Shown one piece after another: positions 50,014 to 63,624 of a DNA stretch of 64,000 nucleotides. This stretch comes from Nitrospirota bacterium (lineage in GTDB: Bacteria; Nitrospirota; Nitrospiria; Nitrospirales; Nitrospiraceae): assembly GCA_030684575.1 (NCBI GenBank), contig JAUXVD010000008.1, forward strand, positions 930,001 to 994,000, read 5' to 3'. The notes under the pieces are model-generated. The model was not told the DNA's origin. It saw only the letters and a program-made list of their open reading frames with translations, and did not search any database. Within the stretch, counting starts at the first letter, position 1. Each line of letters begins with the position of its first letter. The translations under genes were made by a program, and so were the position numbers.

Positions 50014-50365
50014 GGAGGAGGGATACTTTCGCGGTTATTTCAAGAACAATGCTAGACAATCCAATGCTTTCTGTTAAGGTAGCACGTAGACATCGAGAAC
50101 GTAACTATAGAGTGGAAATAGTACCTAACCCTTTAGGGGGAGTCAACACCCACCTTTGGAGAAGCGAGTCCTACATCGTCGGTATTGTCCCTCACTCGAT
50201 GCCTTTCTATACTCTCCCTACAGAGTCAAGGCGTTCGGATAAACCATGAGGGCATCCGGCGTTGTCAGTAGAAAGAGCACGACGGGCAAGGCTCTTTTCT
50301 CGCGGGGCTGGACTCGGTGTTGGTGTGAAGATCTTTGCAGCAATTAATTTCGTAGGGGGGATACA
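50014..50365 (+). other. 352-bp divergent intergenic region upstream of the EPS operon
   Basis: Lies between luxR (-) and pilZ (+). It contains no convincing gene; short frames on both strands are not supported. CTGTTAAGGTAGCACGT at 50071-50087 resembles pieces of the enterobacterial JUMPstart/ops element (CTGTTAAG and GGTAGC), but in altered order. No sigma54 GG-N10-GC pair was found. AGGGGGG at 50354-50360 is the ribosome-binding site for the PilZ gene. Confidence 0.5.
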
Positions 50366-50713: not shown

Positions 50714-50797
50714 GCGAGATTGCAATGTGAGCTCGAGGGGCGGAGACCACACTGTATGCGCAGTATGATAGTGTCGATTCACTACATGAGGGCAGTG

Positions 50798-51451
50798 ATG
50801 AATATGATGATACGTAGTATTGCGATTATGGGTATTATCCTGGCGATGACAGCGGCAACGGCATTGGCACAATCGAAGCCGTCCGCAAGTAACCCACTCC
50901 AGGAGTCGGCACATGAGAAGGCGTCACTGATTGTGACGACCGATTATATCCTCGGACCGGAAGACGTATTAGAAGTTACGGTATGGCGGAACGTCGACCT
51001 TTCAAAAACGGTGACCGTACGTCCCGATGGGAAAATTTCTCTTCCGCTTATCGGTGATGTATCTGCTGTGGGTAAAACGACGGTGCAATTGGCTGAGGAT
51101 ATTTCTGGTAAGTTAAAGGAATATAAGGAAAACCCCCAGGTGTCCATTCTTGTGAAAGAAGTGAATAGCTACGCGATTTATGTGCTCGGAGAAGTGGCAC
51201 ACCCGGGAAAGTTTCCGCTGAAGAGTAAGACTACCTTGTTACAGGCCGTCACAGTTTCCGGAGGTTTTACAGCTACAGCAGCGAGAAATAAGATCGTCGT
51301 GTTTCGCTTTGCCAAGGATGGCGCGAGCCAAATTAAGATAAAGGCAAGCTATGATGACATCGTGTTGAGAGATGGGTCGAATCAAAATATTGAGTTGAAA
51401 CCGGGTGATCAAATTGTTGTGCCGTCAGAGACAATGGTGCTCGTGCCATGA
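50798..51451 (+). CDS. Wza/GumB-type polysaccharide export protein (periplasmic/secreted form)
   Basis: A 217-residue protein with a signal peptide (IRSIAIMGIILAMTAATALAQ) and a Poly_export domain followed by an SLBB domain: YILGPEDVLEVTVWRN, VRPDGKISLPLIGDV, and VKEVNSYAIYVLGEVAHPGK. No lipobox. GAGGG before ATG 50798 decides the start over upstream in-frame codons. It is a close paralogue of the next gene and overlaps its open frame end. Confidence 0.88.
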   Translation: MNMMIRSIAIMGIILAMTAATALAQSKPSASNPLQESAHEKASLIVTTDYILGPEDVLEVTVWRNVDLSKTVTVRPDGKISLPLIGDVSAVGKTTVQLAEDISGKLKEYKENPQVSILVKEVNSYAIYVLGEVAHPGKFPLKSKTTLLQAVTVSGGFTATAARNKIVVFRFAKDGASQIKIKASYDDIVLRDGSNQNIELKPGDQIVVPSETMVLVP

Positions 51452-51468
51452 TGTGCAGGAGGGGCGGA

Positions 51469-52104
51469 ATGATATCTGCTATGTGCATTGATTTGATGAG
51501 AAAGACTCTTTGCGTGTGTGTGATGGTGGGAGTTTCGCTCCTGCTTGTGGTTGCTTGTGTGGGAATCCCTAAAGAAGCGTTAGACGAAGTCAGTCGGCCT
51601 CTCCCGAAGGATTTCCTCCTCGGACCTGAAGATGTTGTGGAGGTAATGGTGTGGAGAAATCAGGATTTGTCTCGTACGGTAGTGGTACGGCCAGATGGAA
51701 TGATTTCTCTCCCTCTAATTGGAGATGTGCAAGCAAGCGGTCTGACAGCATCGGGAGTGAGTGAAAAGATATCTAAGCGATTATCAGAATACAAAGAAAA
51801 CCCGTCCGTATCTGTCAGCGTGAAGGAAATTAATAGTTACTATATTTATGTTGTGGGGGAATTCGTACATCCAGGAAAGTATCCGCTGAAATCTTATACC
51901 ACGGTTCTGCAGGCAGTGTCGTTAGCCGGAGGGTTCACTCAATATGCTTCGAAGAATCGAATGGCAGTTATGCGGACCATTCGTACTGGAGCAGTGGATG
52001 AACGGCATGTACGCATTCCTGTTCGCTATGATGATTTGGTAATGGGAAAAGGGGAGGTCGGAAATTTCAGGCTTTTGACAGGGGATACCATTGTTGTGCC
52101 CTAA
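51469..52104 (+). CDS. Wza/GumB-type polysaccharide export lipoprotein
   Basis: A 211-residue paralogue of the preceding export protein with the same Poly_export/SLBB layout (FLLGPEDVVEVMVWRNQDLS, VRPDGMISLPLIGDV, VKEINSYYIYVVGEFVHPGK), but with a lipobox (VSLLLVVAC) in place of a simple signal peptide. AGGAGG lies upstream of ATG 51469; earlier in-frame ATGs at 51448 and 51451 overlap the previous stop. Such proteins form the outer-membrane channel for exopolysaccharide. Confidence 0.88.
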   Translation: MISAMCIDLMRKTLCVCVMVGVSLLLVVACVGIPKEALDEVSRPLPKDFLLGPEDVVEVMVWRNQDLSRTVVVRPDGMISLPLIGDVQASGLTASGVSEKISKRLSEYKENPSVSVSVKEINSYYIYVVGEFVHPGKYPLKSYTTVLQAVSLAGGFTQYASKNRMAVMRTIRTGAVDERHVRIPVRYDDLVMGKGEVGNFRLLTGDTIVVP

Positions 52105-52117
52105 GGTCTTTGCATCC

Positions 52118-53425
52118 ATGGTCCCCCTGTCGCGCTTGCTGGTCGTCGCCGTGGTCGTCTTTCTTTTGGCGTTGACAAATACGGTGTCGGCGCAAACAAG
52201 AAGTGATGGAAGTGAGCAGACCTCAGGGACTTCACAGGACGCTTTCCGCCGACCGATTGCTCCAGTGAGCGCACCTTCGGCGGGATCTCCCGCTCCGGTG
52301 ATTCCGTTTGTAACTATCTCTGAGCGGTTTGATGACAATGTCTTGTTTACCCCGACGAATAAAATGCAGGACTTTGTGACGAATGTCACGGCTGGTGCGC
52401 GGCTTAATTATAGGGACGATATGGTTGATGGGACTTTTCGCGGAGGTCTTGTCTCTGAGGTGTATGTACGCAATCCTGGATTGAATTACATTGGGGCTAA
52501 TGCGGCACTCACTGCTGTTTTGGACAATGCGGTGGGAAAGGTGGTTCGCGGTTTGGGGCTTAGAGTCAGTGATGCAGTGTCCTATAGCCCTAGGTCGCAG
52601 GCCTTTATTACGCCAGAAGCGCCTGTGAATAGTTTCATCAATGGCATTCAAGCCTTCAGAAATAATACTCTTACGAATGCCACAAATGTGCTGAGCACGT
52701 ATGCCCTCAATCCATTGGATCAGGTTAGGGCGTCCTACTCATATCAGATGATCAGATTTTTCAACGATCAGCCAGTTTCTGGTGCTGTCGGTGGTTTGTT
52801 TAACTCGGATGTTCACACGCTCTTGACAGGGGTGGAGCATCAGCTCAATCCTTCTGATTCAATTGGAGGATCCTATCAGTATCAGCAGATGGCATTCGCC
52901 CCAAATACCGGTGGTCCATCAGCGATGGTGTCTGTTAACAGTGCCATGGCAACATGGAAGAATTCAATTTCTCGAGAGCTGAGGATGGAAGTGTCCCCTG
53001 GTGCTTCGATCTTGTCTAGTCTCCCCGGACAACCGCAATGGACGCTGCACACAAGTTTGACGTGGAGTGACACGAGAACAGCCGCGGGAGTTTCATTCTA
53101 CAGAGACATTTTCCCTGGCTTCTTTTTTGCTGGGTCTGCCATTAGGACAGATGGGGTGACCCTAACTCTTTCGAGAATTTTAACTAGTCAGTGGACGGTA
53201 GGCGCTCAGTCAGACTATGCGTCTAGCCGCTCTCTTGGGGCGGGGAGTGGAAACCTTCAATTTAAGTCTTTCGGTGAGCGGGCCTTTCTGAATTACACTT
53301 TCTACCCTGGGCTAATTGCTAGTGCGAGCGCAACGTACAATCATTTTACTTTTGGTCAGGTGGGCTCTGAGAATCAGTTGAGTCGTCAGACGGTTACGCT
53401 TACGCTCACTGCAGAATGGAATTAA
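52118..53425 (+). CDS. Outer-membrane beta-barrel protein of the EPS locus
   Basis: A 435-residue protein with a signal peptide (LLVVAVVVFLLALTNTVSAQ), a Pro/Ser/Ala-rich spacer, then a barrel of many amphipathic strands (ISERFDDNVLFTPTNKMQDF ... SYQYQQMAFAPN ... TLTLTAEWN). The FDDNVLFTP motif and position between export and Wzz genes match outer-membrane proteins (EpsL-like/PEP-CTERM-associated barrels) of exosortase-A-type EPS loci, from memory. The TAA stop overlaps the next ATG. Confidence 0.75.
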   Translation: MVPLSRLLVVAVVVFLLALTNTVSAQTRSDGSEQTSGTSQDAFRRPIAPVSAPSAGSPAPVIPFVTISERFDDNVLFTPTNKMQDFVTNVTAGARLNYRDDMVDGTFRGGLVSEVYVRNPGLNYIGANAALTAVLDNAVGKVVRGLGLRVSDAVSYSPRSQAFITPEAPVNSFINGIQAFRNNTLTNATNVLSTYALNPLDQVRASYSYQMIRFFNDQPVSGAVGGLFNSDVHTLLTGVEHQLNPSDSIGGSYQYQQMAFAPNTGGPSAMVSVNSAMATWKNSISRELRMEVSPGASILSSLPGQPQWTLHTSLTWSDTRTAAGVSFYRDIFPGFFFAGSAIRTDGVTLTLSRILTSQWTVGAQSDYASSRSLGAGSGNLQFKSFGERAFLNYTFYPGLIASASATYNHFTFGQVGSENQLSRQTVTLTLTAEWN

Positions 53426-55749
53426 TGATGAACTCGTCTACCGAACTTGGCATTCATGACTATATCGGTTTAGTCCGTCGCCGGAAATGGTTGATTCTTT
53501 CAGTTGTTACAGTCGCAATGGCTATTGCGACTGTCTTGTGCGTTATCCTGCCGAAAAGCTTTCGTTCGACAACAACAATTCTTGTCGAAAGCCAGAAGAT
53601 CCCGGAGAGTTATGTAAAATCAGGGGTCGAAGGTACGATTGAAGGTCGAATTAATTCCATTCAGCAAATTGTCATGAGTCGATCATTGCTAACCAAGATT
53701 GCCGAGGACTTTAATTTTTTTCGTCCGGATACATCCCCTGAAGAGCGAGAGTCTATCGTAAGCGGCATGCGGAAAAGCATTAGGGTGAATACAGCCGAAA
53801 CAGGACATGTAAAGGGGCGAAATACAATTGAAGCATTTTCCATTTCGTTTGCTAACGAAGACGCGCTCACTGCCATGAAAGTAACCGAGAGATTTGCCGA
53901 ACAGTTTATTGAGCAAAACTTGAAGTTTCGCGAGCAGCTTCTGGAGGGGACCTCTAGCTTTCTTGCACAAGAACTGCGTTTAGCCGAGGCTAAGCTTGAA
54001 GATCAGGAGCGGTCGATCAGTGAGTTTAAGCGTAAGTTTATGGGGGAACTGCCTCAGCAGATGGAGGCGAATCTCAGGAGTTTAGACCGTCTACAAATGG
54101 ACGTGAACTCGACGCGTGAAAATATTCAGACGGCTATGAACAGAGTTGGCATTCTTGAGAAACAGGTCAATGAGGCAGTCAGTGGTGCGAGAACTCAAGG
54201 GGCAACGGAGTCAATATCCACGAATCAAGGGCGTGTCGGCGACCCCCTGATCTCACGACTTTCAGAGCTGGAGCGTACACTGACCACGCTTTCAGCTGAG
54301 TATCGCCAGACGTATCCTGACATTGTGCAGGCTCGTCAGGAGATTGAAGCGGTAAAGGATCAACTGGCTCTCAAGTATGGCGTCTCGAAAGATGAAGTTA
54401 AAGCAGGGTCGGCTAAGTTGATAGATCCGGTGCTTCGTGACCAGATGAGGCAGCGAGATGAAGCGAAGAATGAGCTTGAAGTTTTGAAGGAACGGCTTCG
54501 CCGTCTGATCGAGCAGGTTAAGCAATATGAGGGACGAGTAGAACGGGTTCCTGCTCGAGAGCAGGAACTCATGATTTTGATTCGCGACTATGACAATATG
54601 CAGAAGAACTATCAGTCGCTGCTCGACAAGAGTCTGAACGCCCGGCTGGCAGAGAATTTGGAGAAACGGCAAAAAGGGGAGCAGTTTCGCGTTCTTGATC
54701 CAGCCAATCTTCCTGCCACACCTGAATCACCTAATCGCCTTTTCATTCTTCTCGGAGGCCTGTTTGTTGGCTGTGGGATTGGCTTTGGGGCTGCGTTTGG
54801 GATTGACTTACTGCGGCCATCATTTAGACGCCCGGAGGAAGCGGAAAGCTTTTTAGGGCTCCCCATACTCGCTGGAATTCCTTCCTTTAGTACATTGCCT
54901 GGTGCCAAGTGGAGCCTGCCGGTTTCTCCGGCACTTTCTACTCCACTCACCCAAGACGAGAAGAATAGAAAAGCTCTCCAGCTTTCTTATGGGAGAAAAG
55001 GCCAAAATGGGTCTGGCTCGACGGCACTAGTAAAAGGAGCGTCTGCTCAGGACGATGCCTCATGGAATCTTATTTCCAAGTGGTGGCCAAACTCCATGAT
55101 TGCGGAACAGTATCGAGTCGCTGCGACGCGGCTGGCGCTTATGTCGACGGGGCAGCAGCATTCGGTTGCTCTAATTACAAGCTCTCTGATGGGAGAGGGA
55201 AAAAGTTCCACGGCCATCAATCTTAGCCATGTGTTTGCGCAGGGATTGGACAAGAAGACTCTGATCATTGATTGTGATCTTAAGCGACCTGCGGTAAGCA
55301 AGTATTTAGCAATGCCTTCCGGTCCTGGATTAGCTGATTATTGGGCAGGCACCCATACGATTGATGAATGTCTTCATAAGATGGGAGATATTCCATTGTG
55401 GGTGTTACCCGCAGGGACTCGGAGTGAAAAAGTCATCGAGTTATCGAAGGTTCGCCAACTCGAGCAATTGCTCGACGAGATGCGCCCTCGGTTTGACCAA
55501 ATCATTCTTGATGCTCCGCCCGTATTCCCATTGGCAGATCTCAACTTTCTGTCACGCATGGCTGATGTGATGGTATTTGTGATTCAGGCGGGAAAGACGA
55601 GCCGTGATGTGGTAGAGAAAGCGATGAAATCTTTACGTCCACAATGTCAGGTTGGGATTATTCTTGCCGGCGTTGAATCGATGAGTATTCCCTCCTATCA
55701 ATGCCATTATGATGACCCAGTTGGCGCTCGGTATGTCGAAGGAAAGTAG
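53425..55749 (+). CDS. Wzz/GNVR chain-length determinant fused to BY-type tyrosine kinase
   Basis: A 774-residue fusion protein. An N-terminal Wzz domain with a first transmembrane helix (about 30-50), a long periplasmic coiled-coil (about 170-420), a GNVR-type end (RDYDNMQKNYQSLLDKSLNA) and second helix (LFILLGGLFVGCGIGFGAAF), then a cytoplasmic BY-kinase with Walker A SSLMGEGKSSTAINLSHVF (about 590), Walker A' LIIDCDLKRP and Walker B QIILDAPPVF. The tail has only three Tyr residues (SYQCHYDDP, RYVEGK) rather than a Tyr-rich cluster, which may limit autophosphorylation. ATG 53425 overlaps the previous stop; ATG 53416 is possible. Confidence 0.9.
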   Translation: MMNSSTELGIHDYIGLVRRRKWLILSVVTVAMAIATVLCVILPKSFRSTTTILVESQKIPESYVKSGVEGTIEGRINSIQQIVMSRSLLTKIAEDFNFFRPDTSPEERESIVSGMRKSIRVNTAETGHVKGRNTIEAFSISFANEDALTAMKVTERFAEQFIEQNLKFREQLLEGTSSFLAQELRLAEAKLEDQERSISEFKRKFMGELPQQMEANLRSLDRLQMDVNSTRENIQTAMNRVGILEKQVNEAVSGARTQGATESISTNQGRVGDPLISRLSELERTLTTLSAEYRQTYPDIVQARQEIEAVKDQLALKYGVSKDEVKAGSAKLIDPVLRDQMRQRDEAKNELEVLKERLRRLIEQVKQYEGRVERVPAREQELMILIRDYDNMQKNYQSLLDKSLNARLAENLEKRQKGEQFRVLDPANLPATPESPNRLFILLGGLFVGCGIGFGAAFGIDLLRPSFRRPEEAESFLGLPILAGIPSFSTLPGAKWSLPVSPALSTPLTQDEKNRKALQLSYGRKGQNGSGSTALVKGASAQDDASWNLISKWWPNSMIAEQYRVAATRLALMSTGQQHSVALITSSLMGEGKSSTAINLSHVFAQGLDKKTLIIDCDLKRPAVSKYLAMPSGPGLADYWAGTHTIDECLHKMGDIPLWVLPAGTRSEKVIELSKVRQLEQLLDEMRPRFDQIILDAPPVFPLADLNFLSRMADVMVFVIQAGKTSRDVVEKAMKSLRPQCQVGIILAGVESMSIPSYQCHYDDPVGARYVEGK

Positions 55750-55751
55750 AG

Positions 55752-56798
55752 ATGGAGAAAACTACTGCTGTGATCATTCCCAGTTTGAGGGAGATTCCCG
55801 TTCCTAGTCGAAGGCGGTACAGCCTTAAACGGCGCGTGGTCATTCTTGGTTGTGGCCAGCTTGCTTCCGAGGTGTATCATATCCTTGTGACAAAACGACG
55901 AATGACTGTGGACGTGGTGGGCTTCATCGATCGAGAACCCTCGCAAGTGAGCTCCCACTTAGGGAATCCCCAGATCATTGGTACCTATGAGAACCTCTGC
56001 GAAGTGGTTGAACGGTTTCAAGTTCATACTATTGCAGTATGTGTAGAAGATCGACGGTCTGTTCTTCCGGTTCAAGCCCTGCTCGATTGCAAAACCATCG
56101 GGATCGAGGTGATTGACGGGCATCAAATGTATGAGGAGGAGTCAGGGCGTCTATCAATCGACCAACTTCGACCGAGTGCCCTCATCTTCTCCGCAGGCTT
56201 TCAGCGGCGAGTCTTGACGATGGGGTTGAAAAGGGCGGTAGAAGTGGTGCTTTCGGCCATTGGTATGGTGCTGTTGCTGCCAGTATGTATTCTGATTGGC
56301 CTTCTTATCAAGATGGATTCGCCTGGCCCTGTTTTTTACAGGCAGATGCGTGTCGGGCTGCGCGGTCAGCCGTATATGATCTGGAAGTTTCGCTCGATGT
56401 ATAGCGACGCAGAAAAGAGTGGCCCACGATGGGCGGAAAAGCAGGACCCTCGAATATCCCGAGTCGGCCGTATACTCAGGAAGTTGCGGATCGATGAACT
56501 GCCACAGCTCTATAACGTGCTGAGAGGAGAGATGAGCTTGGTCGGTCCACGTCCTGAGCGACCGGTATTTGTCGATGAGCTCAGAAAGAAAATCCCTTAC
56601 TATGATATTCGGCATACCGTTCGACCCGGGGTGACGGGATGGGCACAGACGCAATTTCGCTATGGATCGACTGCTGAGGATGCACATACCAAGCTGCAGT
56701 ACGATTTGTATTACGTGAAAAACATGACCCTAGCCTTGGACTTTCGAATATTGACTGAAACAGCCAGAGTTGTTCTGCTTGGGGAAGGGGCCCGTTAG
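55752..56798 (+). CDS. Polyprenyl glycosylphosphotransferase without N-terminal membrane bundle
   Basis: A 348-residue initiating sugar-phosphate transferase. It starts with a Rossmann-like CoA-binding-type domain (RRVVILGCGQLASEVYHIL), then one membrane segment (IGMVLLLPVCILIGLLIKM) followed by the catalytic domain: SPGPVFYRQMRVGLRGQPY, WKFRSMYSDAE, and LRKLRIDELPQLYNVLRGEM with SLVGPRPERP. Full-length WbaP/EpsB-type proteins carry four more N-terminal helices; here they are missing, and the kinase gene ends 2 bp before the ATG, so this looks like the natural start rather than a fragment. Confidence 0.88.
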   Translation: MEKTTAVIIPSLREIPVPSRRRYSLKRRVVILGCGQLASEVYHILVTKRRMTVDVVGFIDREPSQVSSHLGNPQIIGTYENLCEVVERFQVHTIAVCVEDRRSVLPVQALLDCKTIGIEVIDGHQMYEEESGRLSIDQLRPSALIFSAGFQRRVLTMGLKRAVEVVLSAIGMVLLLPVCILIGLLIKMDSPGPVFYRQMRVGLRGQPYMIWKFRSMYSDAEKSGPRWAEKQDPRISRVGRILRKLRIDELPQLYNVLRGEMSLVGPRPERPVFVDELRKKIPYYDIRHTVRPGVTGWAQTQFRYGSTAEDAHTKLQYDLYYVKNMTLALDFRILTETARVVLLGEGAR

Positions 56799-56803
56799 GA
56801 GCA

Positions 56804-57736
56804 ATGAAGCCACAACCAAGTCGAGTACATGCGCTCTCCTTTGATGTAGAAGAACATTTCCAAGTCGCGGCATTTTGGTCGACGATGAGGAGGCGCCAGT
56901 GGGACAATTATGAAAGCCGGGTGGAGCGGAATGTCGAGAAAATTCTCTCGATCCTCTCGACTCATGGGGTTCATGCAACATTTTTCGTGCTTGGATGGGT
57001 TGCCCAAAAACATCCGGAGCTTGTGAGGACTATTGCGAGTTATGGTCATGAGATCGCCTCTCATGGTTTCGGACATGAATTGATTACCTCCCAGACGCCG
57101 GGTCTATTTCGGGAAGATGTTCGCAACAGCAAAGACATCCTTGAGAATATAATTGGTGGGCCGGTCCACGGCTACCGGGCCCCGTCTTTTACCATTACAT
57201 CGGAAACGAAGTGGGCGCTGCCCATACTGGTTGAGGAAGGGTATGTCTATGACTCAAGTATCTTTCCCATCCAGCATGATCGCTATGGGATGCCTGGGGC
57301 CAACCCCTGGTGCCATCTCTTAGAGACCCAGGCTGGTGCTCTATGGGAAGTCCCTCCATCGACATTACGAATGGGACCAATTCGTCTTCCGATCGCAGGC
57401 GGTGGGTATTTTCGATTGTATCCATATCAGATTTTGCGCAGTTTTCTCACGCGTGCCGCTACTGAGGAGCAGCCACTCGTCATGTATTTCCATCCGTGGG
57501 AGCTTGATCCAGATCAGCCGAGAATGGAAGGATCGTTGGTGTCGAAGTTTCGCCATTACTTGAATCTTCGGAAAACGGAATCTCGCTTGCAGCAATTGGT
57601 GAAGGACTTTAGGTTCGCGTCGATACGAGAAGCCGTTGACACAGTTGGTGTGGCCTGCGCCGATAAAGAGCAAGCTCTTGGGTTAGAGGCAGCTGGGGGT
57701 GTTCCCTGCCTTGCGGAGAAGACTCTCAATCGCTGA
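56804..57736 (+). CDS. Polysaccharide deacetylase (NodB type, exosortase-A-associated form)
   Basis: A 310-residue deacetylase. It starts ALSFDVEEHFQVAAFW (catalytic Asp), has the zinc HxxxH motif in IASHGFGHELI, GYRAPSFTIT, and a C-terminal DUF3473-like region (YFHPWELDPDQP). This form is typical of exosortase-A EPS loci, from memory (TIGR03006-like). No signal peptide is visible, so the active site may be cytoplasmic, as in that group. The pseudogene follows 4 bp later. Confidence 0.87.
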   Translation: MKPQPSRVHALSFDVEEHFQVAAFWSTMRRRQWDNYESRVERNVEKILSILSTHGVHATFFVLGWVAQKHPELVRTIASYGHEIASHGFGHELITSQTPGLFREDVRNSKDILENIIGGPVHGYRAPSFTITSETKWALPILVEEGYVYDSSIFPIQHDRYGMPGANPWCHLLETQAGALWEVPPSTLRMGPIRLPIAGGGYFRLYPYQILRSFLTRAATEEQPLVMYFHPWELDPDQPRMEGSLVSKFRHYLNLRKTESRLQQLVKDFRFASIREAVDTVGVACADKEQALGLEAAGGVPCLAEKTLNR

Positions 57737-57740
57737 GCCT

Positions 57741-58200
57741 ATGCAGGCGCTTGGCATATGGCATATATAACCGCATCAAGAATATGCAGTGGGGTCCGGA
57801 GCTCTGATAGGCTGGATTGAGGTTCTCTGTCCACGGGTCAGGAAGACAAGCACCTTAGGCAAAGATGCAGTCTGTCGTCACGCCGTTATTTTCAGGCTAT
57901 CTCTTCGCTAGATCCTGTCTCTTGAGGTCAAGACTCGTCATGTATGTCACAGGTGCGTAGAACCGTATTGCATGTGGGCCTGCGCCGGACACTGTGCAGC
58001 GCGATATCATTGCCAGTATCCGTGAATGACGGCAGACGGGGCTGTCGATCCAAAGCTCCCTGCGCTACTGTGGAGATGTGGGTCGTATTCAAGAAGGTCC
58101 ACTCTATGGGCTAGAAGCAGTGTTCGAGCTGGAGATGAATCGACAGCAACGAGCAAGGCTTTTGTTGAAAACCCTGACTTGCCAGCGCGGGTCGTTCTAG
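57741..58200 (+). pseudogene. Decayed NusG/RfaH-family transcription antiterminator
   Basis: The only clear remnant in the 791-bp gap before the amidotransferase. From ATG 57741 one frame reads MQALGIWHI-stop-PHQEYAV ... GWIEVLCPRVRKTSTLGKDA, like the start of a NusG N-terminal (NGN) domain. Near 57865-57890 the homology shifts to another frame: PLFSGYLFARSCLLRSRLVM and, after a TAG at 57958, GPAPDTVQRDIIASIRE. After a TGA at 58027 the same frame gives the KOW-domain-like GDVGRIQEGPLYGLEAVFEL ... QRARLLLKTLTCQ, ending at 58198-58200. One frameshift plus three in-frame stops rule out a normal product. RfaH/UpxY-like factors are usual in EPS loci. Confidence 0.78.
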
Positions 58201-58527
58201 ATCTGAATTCAGTTATCAATCTGAAATTTTCAGGTAAGATTAGCCAGGACGGGTTCTCGCCTGGTTCCCCTAAATGGGAAAGTCTATTAAAGGGACTCGC
58301 CAAGGGCTCCTCGCTCCATTAAAATGTCACGCCGCAAGTCCGCAGGGTGTGCCAAGGGGGTGAGGTGTGAATTCGTGGAGAGATGTTTCTGGCCTATAGC
58401 ACCGGGACGCGGCAGCTCATTCAGCGCCTCTCGTTTCTGTGACAGGGCTGGTTTCGAGTAGACGATAGGGCAAGATCTCATGATTTTTAAAGTAAAGTTG
58501 TCGTTCTAGTAAACTCGAGATAACTCT
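58201..58527 (+). other. Spacer between the NusG-like pseudogene and the amidotransferase gene
   Basis: About 327 bp without a supported gene. Short open frames on both strands (such as 58026-58322 on the plus strand, which crosses the pseudogene) have no recognisable domain. It may hold the promoter of the downstream amidotransferase transcription unit, but I find no confident -35/-10 pair. Confidence 0.4.
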
Positions 58528-60465
58528 ATGTGTGGCATTGCAGGAATTGTAACGCATCCTAGCGCTGCCGTTGAAAAGTCAGTACTCCAACGGATGATCA
58601 GTATGGTGAATCATCGTGGGCCAGATGCGGCAGGATTTCACCTGTCTGGACCTGTGGGGCTCGCGCACGCGAGGCTCAGTATTATTGACGTTGGCGGTGG
58701 GCATCAGCCGATGCATAACGAGGACAAGACCGTATGGATCACCTTCAATGGTGAAATCTTCAATTATGTCGAATTGCGTGAAGATCTCATTAAAAAGGGG
58801 CATCGGTTTCAAACCCAGTCGGATACAGAAGTTATCGTGCATCTGTATGAAGAGAAGGGCGAAGAGTGCGTTCATGATCTGAATGGGCAGTGGGCCTTTG
58901 CCATTTGGGATTCCAGACGCGAGCGGTTATTTCTTTCGCGAGATCGGTTAGGGGTTCGCCCGCTCTTCTATGCACAGACTCCGGAAGGGTTTGTGTTTGG
59001 ATCTGAAATCAAGTCGTTGCTGGTCGTTCCCTCCGTGCCTCGAGCCATTGATCGACAGGCCTTGGATGAATTGTTCACCTTTTGGGTCACCCTTCCACCT
59101 CGAACAATTTTCGAAGGGGTCTCAGAGCTTCCTCCAGGGCATTCAATCATTCTTGAGCATGGCGATCTCCAGATCAAACCCTATTGGACCCTCGACTACA
59201 ACCCGTCGAAAGGGTTGATAGAGGAAGAGGAGGCGAGAGAGGGCCTGCTTGAGCTGCTTCTCGATGCTGTGCGGATTCGTTTGCGGGCGGATGTGCCAGT
59301 CGGCGCCTATCTGAGCGGTGGGCTTGATTCGACGGTGATTGCGGCACTGGTGAAGAAGCTTGGGACGACGCATCTGAAAACATTCTCCATCGCATTTGAA
59401 GATAAAGAGTTTGACGAGAGTAGCTTTCAGAACGAGGCAAGCCAGTTTCTCGGGACCGATCACCAGGGAGTCCTCTGCTCATCCCAGGATATCGGTCGAG
59501 TATTTCCAGAAGTGATTTGGCACACCGAGAAACCTGTTTTGCGGACGGCTCCCGCTCCTCTATTTCTGTTGTCTAAGTTGGTGCGAGAGCAGGGATACAA
59601 AGTTGTGCTCACCGGAGAGGGCTCGGATGAAATCCTGGGAGGGTACGATATCTTCAAGGAAGCGAAGATCCGGCGATTCTGGGCTAAATACCCAGATTCA
59701 AAGTTTCGGCCGATGCTTCTGAGGCGCCTCTATCCCTATATGAAAAATATTCAGTCCCAGTCCGACGCCTATCTGCGTGCATTCTTCCATGTGAGAAAAG
59801 AGGACGTCGAGAGCCCGTTTTTTTCTCACTTGCCTCGCTGGGACATGACATCGAAGATCAAACTTTTCTACTCAACGGCCACAGCGGACAGTCTTAAGCG
59901 CTGTGATGCGATGCAGGCGATCGAAGGTCTGTTGCCAAGCCGATATGGGCAGTGGGATCACTTTTCGCAATCGCAATATCTTGAAGCGGCCCATCTCCTT
60001 CCAGGGTATATTCTATCATCTCAAGGAGATCGGATGGCGATGGCCCATTCCATTGAGGGCCGGTTTCCCTTCCTTGACTACCGGGTCGTGGAATTTGCGT
60101 CGAGACTTTCTCCGCAGCTCAAGATGAAAGTCTTGAACGAGAAATATCTGTTGAAGGCGGCGATCGGAGACATGATTCCACGTTCGATCAGAAACAGACA
60201 TAAGCAGCCGTACCGTGCGCCTGATAGCCAGAGTTTTCTTGCCGACGGGAAGAAGGGCAAGTTATTTGAATATGTCGAAGAGCTACTTGCTCCTCACGCC
60301 ATTCAGGAGGGAGGTGTGTTTGATGCAGGGGCGGTAGGAAAGCTATTGGAGAAGGCAAGACAGGGTCAGATTGTGAGCATGAAGGATAATATGGCGTTGG
60401 TTGGGGTCCTCTCGACTCAGGTGGTCATCGACCGGTTTATTAAGAACTTTCCAAGGAGCGTGTGA
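58528..60465 (+). CDS. Asparagine-synthase-like amidotransferase (exosortase-A EPS type)
   Basis: A 645-residue AsnB-type enzyme. Cys2 in MCGIAGIVTHPSAAVEK is the glutaminase nucleophile; NHRGPDAAGFH and FNGEIFNYVELREDL complete that domain. The synthetase domain has the PP-loop YLSGGLDSTVIAAL (about 262) and VLTGEGSDEILGGYDIF. It closely resembles amidotransferases encoded in exosortase-A EPS loci (TIGR03108-like, from memory) rather than a housekeeping AsnB. The ACP gene follows after 1 bp. It probably amidates a small acid or carrier-bound intermediate linked to EPS modification. Confidence 0.85.
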   Translation: MCGIAGIVTHPSAAVEKSVLQRMISMVNHRGPDAAGFHLSGPVGLAHARLSIIDVGGGHQPMHNEDKTVWITFNGEIFNYVELREDLIKKGHRFQTQSDTEVIVHLYEEKGEECVHDLNGQWAFAIWDSRRERLFLSRDRLGVRPLFYAQTPEGFVFGSEIKSLLVVPSVPRAIDRQALDELFTFWVTLPPRTIFEGVSELPPGHSIILEHGDLQIKPYWTLDYNPSKGLIEEEEAREGLLELLLDAVRIRLRADVPVGAYLSGGLDSTVIAALVKKLGTTHLKTFSIAFEDKEFDESSFQNEASQFLGTDHQGVLCSSQDIGRVFPEVIWHTEKPVLRTAPAPLFLLSKLVREQGYKVVLTGEGSDEILGGYDIFKEAKIRRFWAKYPDSKFRPMLLRRLYPYMKNIQSQSDAYLRAFFHVRKEDVESPFFSHLPRWDMTSKIKLFYSTATADSLKRCDAMQAIEGLLPSRYGQWDHFSQSQYLEAAHLLPGYILSSQGDRMAMAHSIEGRFPFLDYRVVEFASRLSPQLKMKVLNEKYLLKAAIGDMIPRSIRNRHKQPYRAPDSQSFLADGKKGKLFEYVEELLAPHAIQEGGVFDAGAVGKLLEKARQGQIVSMKDNMALVGVLSTQVVIDRFIKNFPRSV

Positions 60466-60961: not shown

Positions 60962-62470
60962 ATGCGCGTAGAGACTGTCATTGCTCAAACGATGGATTCA
61001 TGGCCTCACAAGGTCGCCGTTGTCTATAAGGGCCGACAATGGACCTATGGAGGATTGCGAGACCTTGTCGCGACGGTGAAGCGCAGGCTAAGCGAAGGCG
61101 GATTTACAGAAGGTGATCGGGCGATTCTCTGGATGGAGAATTCGCCTGACTATATCGCCGCATATCTTGCTGTGCTTCAGGCCGGGGGTGTTGTGGTGGC
61201 CATCCATCCCCAGGTTCCGGTCGCAGAGGTCGTTCGTATTATTCGCCATGTTGGTGCAACCGGACTGATCGCCTCTTCGGCAGTCAAGCATTGGACCATT
61301 GGCGATGTGAGTTCGGTCGGCCTACGATTTATCGTGAGAGACGACCAGGTCGTTGCCTGTCGTCACGGAGAGTCCACCATCACGAGCCAGGCGGACCTTG
61401 CACAAATTATCTATACATCCGGGTCGACAGGCCAGCCGAAGGGTGTGATGCTGACGCACCAAAATTTAATGGCCAATACGAAGTCGATTCTTGAGTACCT
61501 GCAGCTTACGTCGGACGACTCAGCAATGGCCGTTCTTCCGTTCATGTATGCCTATGGCAATTCAGTCATGCTCACGCACCTCTTTGTCGGTGGAACGCTC
61601 GTAATCGAAAACAGCTTTCTCTATCCTCACGTGATCCTGGAAAGTATGATGCGGGAAAAAATCACCGGGTTTTCCGGCGTGGCCACCACCTATGCCATCA
61701 TGCTCAACCACTCGAATTTAAAATCATATTCGTTCCCAGCACTGAGGTACTTGACGCACGCGGGCGGTCCCATGCCGTCAGAATTGTTGGTTCGCGTACG
61801 ATCGGTGTTTTTGGAGGCACGTCTGTTTATCATGTATGGCCAAACTGAAGCGTCCGCACGGTTGACCTATCTCCCTCCAGACCTGTTGGATGTGAAGAAG
61901 GGATCTGCCGGCCGCGCAATTCCCGGTGTGACCCTGAAGATCGTCAAAGAGGGAGGCGCGGAGGCACCTGTCGGAGAAGTCGGAGAAGTGTATGCCTCGG
62001 GGGATAATATCATGCAAGGGTATTGGCAAGATCCTCATACGACGGCTGATACGCTCCGAGAAGGATGGCTTCGCACAGGTGATCTGGGGCGATTAGACGA
62101 GGATGGCTATCTGACGATCGAAGGCCGCAATAGCGAGATGATCAAGTCCGGTGCCTATCGGATCAGTCCTGTGGAGATTGAAGAGGTGCTGTTGCAGCAT
62201 CCTCAAGTGCACGAGGCCGGAGTGGTCGGCGTCGACGATCCGATTTTAGGGCAGAAAATTTGCGCGGTCGTCACACTGAAATCCGCAGGCTGTGCAACCG
62301 ACCAAGAGCTTCTCGCGCATTGTGCTCAGGGGTTAGTGCAATACAAACGGCCCAAATCGATTATTGTGGTTGATGCGTTGCCCAAGTCGCCTTCCGGTAA
62401 GGTGTTGAGGCAGAATCTTCGCGAAATCAGCTTGCGCGCAGTTCAATCATCGGCGCCTGTTACGTCCTAG
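60962..62470 (+). CDS. AMP-forming acyl ligase of the EPS locus
   Basis: A 502-residue ANL-superfamily enzyme. The P-loop motif IIYTSGSTGQPKGVMLTH (about 150) and GWLRTGDLGRLDEDGYLTIE in the C-terminal region are intact, with the lysine motif KSPSGKVLRQNL near the end. It resembles acyl-CoA ligases associated with exosortase A (TIGR03098-like, from memory). It probably activates a carboxylic acid and loads the upstream ACP or CoA. Confidence 0.88.
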   Translation: MRVETVIAQTMDSWPHKVAVVYKGRQWTYGGLRDLVATVKRRLSEGGFTEGDRAILWMENSPDYIAAYLAVLQAGGVVVAIHPQVPVAEVVRIIRHVGATGLIASSAVKHWTIGDVSSVGLRFIVRDDQVVACRHGESTITSQADLAQIIYTSGSTGQPKGVMLTHQNLMANTKSILEYLQLTSDDSAMAVLPFMYAYGNSVMLTHLFVGGTLVIENSFLYPHVILESMMREKITGFSGVATTYAIMLNHSNLKSYSFPALRYLTHAGGPMPSELLVRVRSVFLEARLFIMYGQTEASARLTYLPPDLLDVKKGSAGRAIPGVTLKIVKEGGAEAPVGEVGEVYASGDNIMQGYWQDPHTTADTLREGWLRTGDLGRLDEDGYLTIEGRNSEMIKSGAYRISPVEIEEVLLQHPQVHEAGVVGVDDPILGQKICAVVTLKSAGCATDQELLAHCAQGLVQYKRPKSIIVVDALPKSPSGKVLRQNLREISLRAVQSSAPVTS

Positions 62471-62622
62471 CTCGTATCCGTCGCGCGAGCCGCGAGCCTT
62501 TCATTGGACTCTGTGACGAAAGAGATTTGTGAGGGATCGAAAAATGGCATGACGTCGAGTCCCTGCTGCAGTGGGTAGATGTCTGCACTGGATGACAACA
62601 GAATGTTGGGAGGAGGGTGACG

Positions 62623-63624
62623 ATGAAGCAAGAGTCAGGGCTATTCTCGGCGGATCAGTTGAAGCTTGATGTCAGCAAAGAGGCAGACCGAATTGGTGTG
62701 TTCATGCGGGAAGGCGTGTTCAAACAGCTCAAGCGAAAAGGAGTGGTGGTCGGACTCTCCGGAGGCATCGACAGCAGCGCGGTCGCCGCCCTTTCGGTTC
62801 ATGCCTTGGGGGCCGATCGCGTGGTGGGCATATTCATGCCTGAATCGGATTCTTCAGACGATAGCCTGCGCTTGGGGCAGCTACTGGCCAAAAAGCTTGG
62901 GATTCGAACGTTCAAAGAAGATATCTCCGGCATTCTACAGGGGGCTGAATGTTATCGGCGACGTGACGAGGCGATCAAGGCTGTCGTCCCGCAATACCAT
63001 GCAGGGTATAAATCCAAGCTGGTGCTCTCCTCTCTCGATAGTTCGGAGTTCAGGATCTCGTATGTGGTGGTTCAGGATCCCGAGGGCAAGCAGACGAAGG
63101 TGCGGCTCACGGCCGATGCATTTTTGGCGCTTGTTGCCGCGACGAATTTCAAGCAGCGGACAAGAAAGATGATGGAGTACTACTACGCCGACCGCTTCCT
63201 CTATGCGGTTGGAGGAACGCCCAATCGTCTCGAATACGACCAGGGATTTTTCGTGAAAAATGGAGATGGCTCCGCAGATATCAAGCCCATCGCGCATTTA
63301 TATAAGTCGCAGGTGTACCAGATTGCTCGATTCCTCGGGGTTCCAGAAGAAATCCTGAACCGTCCTCCGACAACCGACACCTATTCATTGGCACAATCCC
63401 AAGAGGAATTCTATTTCTCTCTGCCCTACGACAAGATGGATCTCTGTCTCTACGCAAAGGACCGGCAGATTCCGGCAGCGGCCGTGGCCGTGGCGGCAGG
63501 GTTGACGGCTGCGCAGGTTGATCGGGTCTATCGCGACATCGATGCGAAGCGTGCCGTTGCGCGATATCTACATATGGAGCCGTTATTGATTGAAGCGGTC
63601 GGCGACGTTGGGAAACCCTCCTAG
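62623..63624 (+). CDS. NAD-synthetase-like (NadE-family) ammonia-dependent ligase
   Basis: A 333-residue protein with the NadE-like PP-loop VVVGLSGGIDSSAVAALSVH near residue 45, YADRFLYAVGGTPNRLEYDQ and IKPIAHLYKSQVYQIARFLG of the NAD synthase fold. No glutaminase domain, so it would use free ammonia or ammonia from a partner such as the upstream amidotransferase. The unusual insert LSSLDSSEFRISYVVVQDPE separates the halves. In this EPS context it may amidate an acyl or sugar acid rather than make NAD; a housekeeping NadE role is the alternative. GGAGG upstream decides ATG 62623. Confidence 0.8.
   Translation: MKQESGLFSADQLKLDVSKEADRIGVFMREGVFKQLKRKGVVVGLSGGIDSSAVAALSVHALGADRVVGIFMPESDSSDDSLRLGQLLAKKLGIRTFKEDISGILQGAECYRRRDEAIKAVVPQYHAGYKSKLVLSSLDSSEFRISYVVVQDPEGKQTKVRLTADAFLALVAATNFKQRTRKMMEYYYADRFLYAVGGTPNRLEYDQGFFVKNGDGSADIKPIAHLYKSQVYQIARFLGVPEEILNRPPTTDTYSLAQSQEEFYFSLPYDKMDLCLYAKDRQIPAAAVAVAAGLTAAQVDRVYRDIDAKRAVARYLHMEPLLIEAVGDVGKPS

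Follow-up and report, generated by a model that had tools for sequence, protein, structure and literature searches.

The core of the RfaH loading site ops (GGCGGTAGNNTG) is a proven target of RfaH in E. coli (PMC5995543). Recruitment of RfaH needs ops bases 3-8 (Zuber et al. 2018, PMC5995543). Within the element C3 pairs with G8, G5 and T6 are read directly, and the TG at positions 11-12 sets the pause (PMC5995543). RfaH has been described as 'mostly limited to Proteobacteria' (PMC7593976), and a search of the open-access literature found no publication naming both RfaH and Nitrospira. In this study we analysed a 64,000-nucleotide stretch of DNA from a Nitrospirota bacterium (the window, G000:C8:930001-994000), whose nearest named relatives are Nitrospira genomes. 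It carries an XrtA/PEP-CTERM-type exopolysaccharide cluster interrupted by a gap. This gap very probably contains what is left of an antitermination module of two parts, a dead factor and an eroding site, with cis-loading control lost and the enzymes kept.

The exopolysaccharide locus and its gap

In this locus, genes for export proteins, an outer-membrane protein, a Wzz/kinase, a sugar transferase and the deacetylase follow one another up to the 791-base gap, after which come the amidotransferase and the ligase. The features, all on the + strand, are as follows.

50720..56798, +, export and assembly genes: two Poly_export/SLBB proteins, outer-membrane protein, Wzz/kinase and sugar transferase
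56804..57736, +, XrtA-system polysaccharide deacetylase (TIGR03006), directly before the relic
57752..58220, +, relic of an RfaH-like NusG paralog (NGN and KOW) with at least three frameshifts and three stops, from alignments and a neutral codon-position pattern
58389..58405, +, hairpin remains, CTGGCCTATAGCACCGG; relatives have the hairpin ahead of their ops-like site
58408..58419, +, eroded ops-like site, CGCGGCAGCTCA; GGCGGYAGCYTG in intact relatives
58528..60465, +, asparagine-synthase-like amidotransferase, the first gene past the eroded site
60962..63624, +, AMP-binding ligase and NAD-synthase-like gene

The genes at 60962..63624 start a same-strand gene run that extends ~38 kb past the eroded site. 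At the head of the locus the two Poly_export/SLBB genes are adjacent (50720-52104), and most relatives retain both. In the leader that separates the divergent gene from the first export gene, 50170-50188 of the window and the ~50 bases ahead of it hold a block, CCTACATCGTCGGTATTGT, preceded by TAACCCTTTAGGGGGAGTCAACA. The block is strongly conserved in ten Nitrospira loci and is probably the promoter or an operator of the locus.

The sequence-only reading had placed a decayed NusG-family gene in the gap, broken by one frameshift and three stop codons. In a tblastn search, intact NusG paralogs located directly after the deacetylase in other Nitrospira genomes matched window positions 57844-58185 through in-frame stops, with E values down to 1.4e-16. 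When frameshifts were allowed, the intact ortholog of locus L089 aligned with 57752-58220 over residues 9-167 of its 168, with 77 of 159 residues identical (48%) and a score of 334 (null 34.5±6.0, maximum 64, n=50). These alignments show that 57752-58220 is a decayed gene for a specialised NusG paralog. The three named stops (TAA 57768, TAG 57958 and TGA 58027) were all present. The frameshifts had been undercounted, since there are at least three, near 57760, 57856 and 58185. The first stop, TAA 57768, is at the codon aligned with K10 of RfaH, and the same stop occurs in the related genome G017.

Intact orthologs in related genomes

Public genomes were scanned with the deacetylase, which yielded 78 loci; most of the genomes analysed are metagenome assemblies. 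The comparison of this gap in related genomes, which had been proposed from the sequence alone, found an intact gene in the same slot in seven Nitrospira loci (L089, L090, L091, L092, L094, L096 and L153). In all seven the order deacetylase, factor, amidotransferase is intact and the factor has an open frame of 168-190 codons. In a tree of the sugar transferase and deacetylase, these seven loci are sister to a group made up of the window, G017, G009 (locus L145) and L088, and the relic state requires at least four separate changes on this tree. Other arrangements were also found. The factor is at the operon head in L105, L140 and L141, an UpxY-type factor is at the locus head in L097 and L147, factor remnants are present in L098, L138 and L152, and the N. 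defluvii group has no factor near the locus. Genome G008 has a KOW remnant after the deacetylase (L098, G008:C81) together with an intact head-of-operon RfaH-like gene with a site (L075, G008:C66); here one module has been replaced by another.

Relationship of the factor to other NusG paralogs

Membership of the NusG family is clear, with Pfam NusG over its cut-off in the intact paralogs and PDB RfaH/NusG matches spanning both domains. The RfaH model TIGR01955 was the best NCBIfam model for every RfaH-like copy tested, at 102-130 bits, below its equivalog cut-off of 144.5. The same copies scored 68-85 bits with the UpxY model NF033644, short of the cut-off of 100, and 30-44 bits with the LoaP model NF033641, far under the cut-off of 125. 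An UpxY or LoaP identity of the factor was ruled out by these model scores. The best PDB sequence match was to RfaH (4.5e-19), and the modelled N-terminal domain fits ops-bound RfaH at 1.6-2.0 A over ~95 residues. AlphaFold predicted the C-terminal domain as beta strands with low confidence. Among the ops-contacting residues, K10 is present in every RfaH-like row and R73 in most of them; R23 is kept in some and H20 in none. H20, R16 and E48 of RfaH are not kept in the factors, E48 aligning to S. By sequence the factor is RfaH-like rather than UpxY- or LoaP-like. Since the RfaH model cut-off is not reached and some RfaH residues are missing, we limit the claim to a factor that would work like RfaH, not one that is RfaH.

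A search for NusG paralogs with model scoring found no intact RfaH-like gene remaining in this genome. The other specialised paralog is an UpxY-type gene at C8:882849 (114 bits), ~105 kb from the relic. It heads a separate gene run (L077:11644-13332, G000:C8 ~881600-883300) and is preceded by an apparent winged-helix regulator and a four-helix-bundle-like gene. Control of the operon might have passed from the dead factor to this UpxY-type paralog acting in trans, or to a new internal promoter. Such a transfer is consistent with the retention of one UpxY-type gene in the genome, with the UpxY-type genes heading this locus in L097 and L147, and with the head-of-operon gene beside a downstream remnant in G008. 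However, the UpxY-type gene sits in its own locus and no common site was found beside UpxY-type genes, and we consider a transfer possible but rather unlikely. Loss of a factor together with its own loading site is the explanation that we prefer.

The ops-like site and its association with the factor

When the stretches between factor and amidotransferase were aligned, GGCGGTAGC was found in all seven intact loci, mostly followed by CTG or CTA and preceded by a hairpin, for example CTGGT-CGATGT-ACCAG. The site consensus GGCGG(T/C)AGC(C/T)TG matches E. coli ops. Pairing in the hairpin is kept despite changes on both sides (CG/TA/GC, GC/AT); the loop lengths differ among loci, and in the alignment the stems did not line up. 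The variant GGCGGCAGC takes this position in another intact clade. Exact copies of GGCGGTAGC numbered 16 across the 2.38 Mb (both strands) of fetched loci, and 14 of them were 55-230 bases after an RfaH-like gene. No match over the 35-bit Rfam gathering score of JUMPstart (RF01707) was obtained at these sites. This genome has no other intergenic ops match; its six exact copies of GGCGGTAGNNTG (15 in a reversed control) all lie within open frames of >100 codons.

Nearly all further specialised NusG paralogs of 61 genomes were fetched. The core GGCGGYAGC was found beside 7 of 13 RfaH-like genes and 0 of 37 UpxY-like genes (p=1.7e-5, a value that overstates independence, the sequences and loci being related). 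The downstream side alone, which was tested first, gave 5/12 and 0/36 (p=4.6e-4, overstated likewise). Five of the seven genes with the core have it after the gene and two before; another genus and another family each contribute one of these genes. No site was found beside the RfaH-like paralogs L189, L194, L197, L211 and L213. A 16-base pattern searched over the 61 genomes returned real sites mixed with a recurrent match, GATCGGCGGCAGCTC, which is probably coding. In L193 and L217 a hairpin and ops-like site 110-130 bases upstream of an RfaH-like gene were confirmed after the pattern scan; with the site upstream of the gene, the factor would act on its own message.

The site is also eroded where the factor is broken or lost. 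Mismatches to GGCGGYAGCYTG had a median of 0 in 24 intact loci and ranged from 1 to 5 in seven broken or lost loci (p=1e-4, again overstating independence among related loci). These seven are the window (3), G017 (4), G009 (3), L093 (5), L097 (5), L095 (2) and L088 (1), the last with a nearly intact gene. A count of 3 was also obtained for two intact loci, N. moscoviensis (L103) and L219. The factor remnants L152 and L138 are accompanied by GGCGGTCTTCTG and AGTGGTGGCTCG, respectively, and their sisters have the full site. In the window, the central six bases CGGCAG are the working variant of another intact clade, so the case for erosion depends on positions 1, 11 and 12 and on the T6 that its own clade has; taken alone it is modest. 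A change of T6 to C had been considered as the killing change and was dropped, as intact clades use GGCGGCAGC. Across lineages, including others that lost the factor, the comparisons support a joint decay of factor and site.

Alternatively, GGCGGYAGC could be a bystander. It would then be a pause or RNA element belonging to the operon, close to the factor gene by chance rather than recognised by the factor. In line with this, a nearly intact site persists as GGCGGTAGTGCG in L154, where the factor gene is gone. Against this, the motif tracks RfaH-like genes in both operon positions, in another genus and in a second family, never occurs beside UpxY-like genes and erodes where the factor is broken; its core is, moreover, the one that RfaH targets in E. 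coli (PMC5995543). We regard a bystander role as improbable and take the site to be the putative target of the factor.

Decay of the factor and selection on its neighbours

The same slot in G017 is 80% identical in DNA to the window and has four stops and three frameshifts, sharing the first TAA and little else. In G009 ~390 bases of the factor gene are gone. Differences between the window and G017 relics are about equal at the three codon positions (.17/.23/.20). The dN/dS values for deacetylase, amidotransferase and ligase between the same two genomes are.05-.09, with the amidotransferase at about 0.05. The relic is evolving neutrally, and its neighbours, including the downstream operon, are under purifying selection; thus the factor died and the operon did not. 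In L088 a well conserved factor gene has a lone frameshift (L088:10171), which is either an assembly error or a very recent loss. With one frameshift only, L088 was dropped as a relic and treated as possibly live.

That the gene is intact and its stops and frameshifts are assembly or sequencing errors, as the single frameshift of L088 could be, is hardly credible for a window copy with at least three frameshifts and three stops at 48% residue identity to L089 and evenly spread substitutions, and since the nearest relatives G017 and G009 are broken at the same spot in different ways, assembly error is excluded.

The operon had been suggested, from the window's sequence, to have lost dedicated antitermination. 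This is supported by the comparisons, and it gains weight because the site is eroded as well, no intact RfaH-like gene is left and the downstream genes are under purifying selection.

DISCUSSION

From the observed relic identity, intact orthologs, factor-site association and joint erosion, we infer pausing, binding and antitermination in the following way. The module would pair an RfaH-like NusG paralog with an ops-like loading site that lies ~200 bases further downstream and is preceded by a small hairpin. In intact relatives, RNA polymerase arriving via the export genes would transcribe the factor gene and then pause at the ops-like site, where the non-template strand would be read by the factor encoded in the same operon. 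With the factor loaded, the polymerase could then continue across ~40 kb of glycan genes and would not terminate prematurely. In the window and its two nearest relatives, the dead factor and eroding site would have ended this cis-loading control, with the enzymes retained.

What is new here is a hairpin and ops-matching site found, by sequence, after intact factors and before two other paralogs. We are inclined to believe that Nitrospira and related families have a self-contained cis RfaH-ops module whose factor gene and hairpin-ops site travel as one within polysaccharide operons, move between the head and the middle of the operon, switch between the variants GGCGGTAGC and GGCGGCAGC, and have repeatedly been lost together. 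If so, the cis module would show how RfaH-ops may have worked before there was a trans-acting, autoinhibited factor, and in-operon NusG paralogs would gain a recruitment site. Such paralogs occur in another phylum beside an ops-matching site with two base variants, and the natural losses show joint decay. With these paralog-site pairs and losses, existing proteins can be used to test whether site recognition preceded autoinhibition in RfaH evolution or followed it. The gap itself shows how a gene-plus-site switch is built and lost.

Like LoaP, the factor is a specialised NusG paralog for long operons, but it scores far below the LoaP cut-off. It shares with UpxY of Bacteroides the encoding of a NusG paralog within the polysaccharide operon that it would serve; its sequence is closer to RfaH, however, and true UpxY-type Nitrospira genes lack the site. 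JUMPstart (Rfam RF01707, PMC2864571) likewise has a stem-loop followed by the ops sequence at polysaccharide genes, whereas the Nitrospira sites fall below the Rfam threshold and are located mid-operon, between genes, in most loci. The closest likeness is to E. coli RfaH/ops (PMC5995543, PMC7593976): an NGN and KOW NusG paralog, the site GGCGGTAGNNTG and polysaccharide operons. In the window's sister clade the factors retain positions K10, Q13 and R23. In contrast to E. coli RfaH, the Nitrospira factor has E48 of the autoinhibited state and H20/R16 replaced, scores below the RfaH model cut-off, and has its gene within the operon that it would target, alongside its own site.
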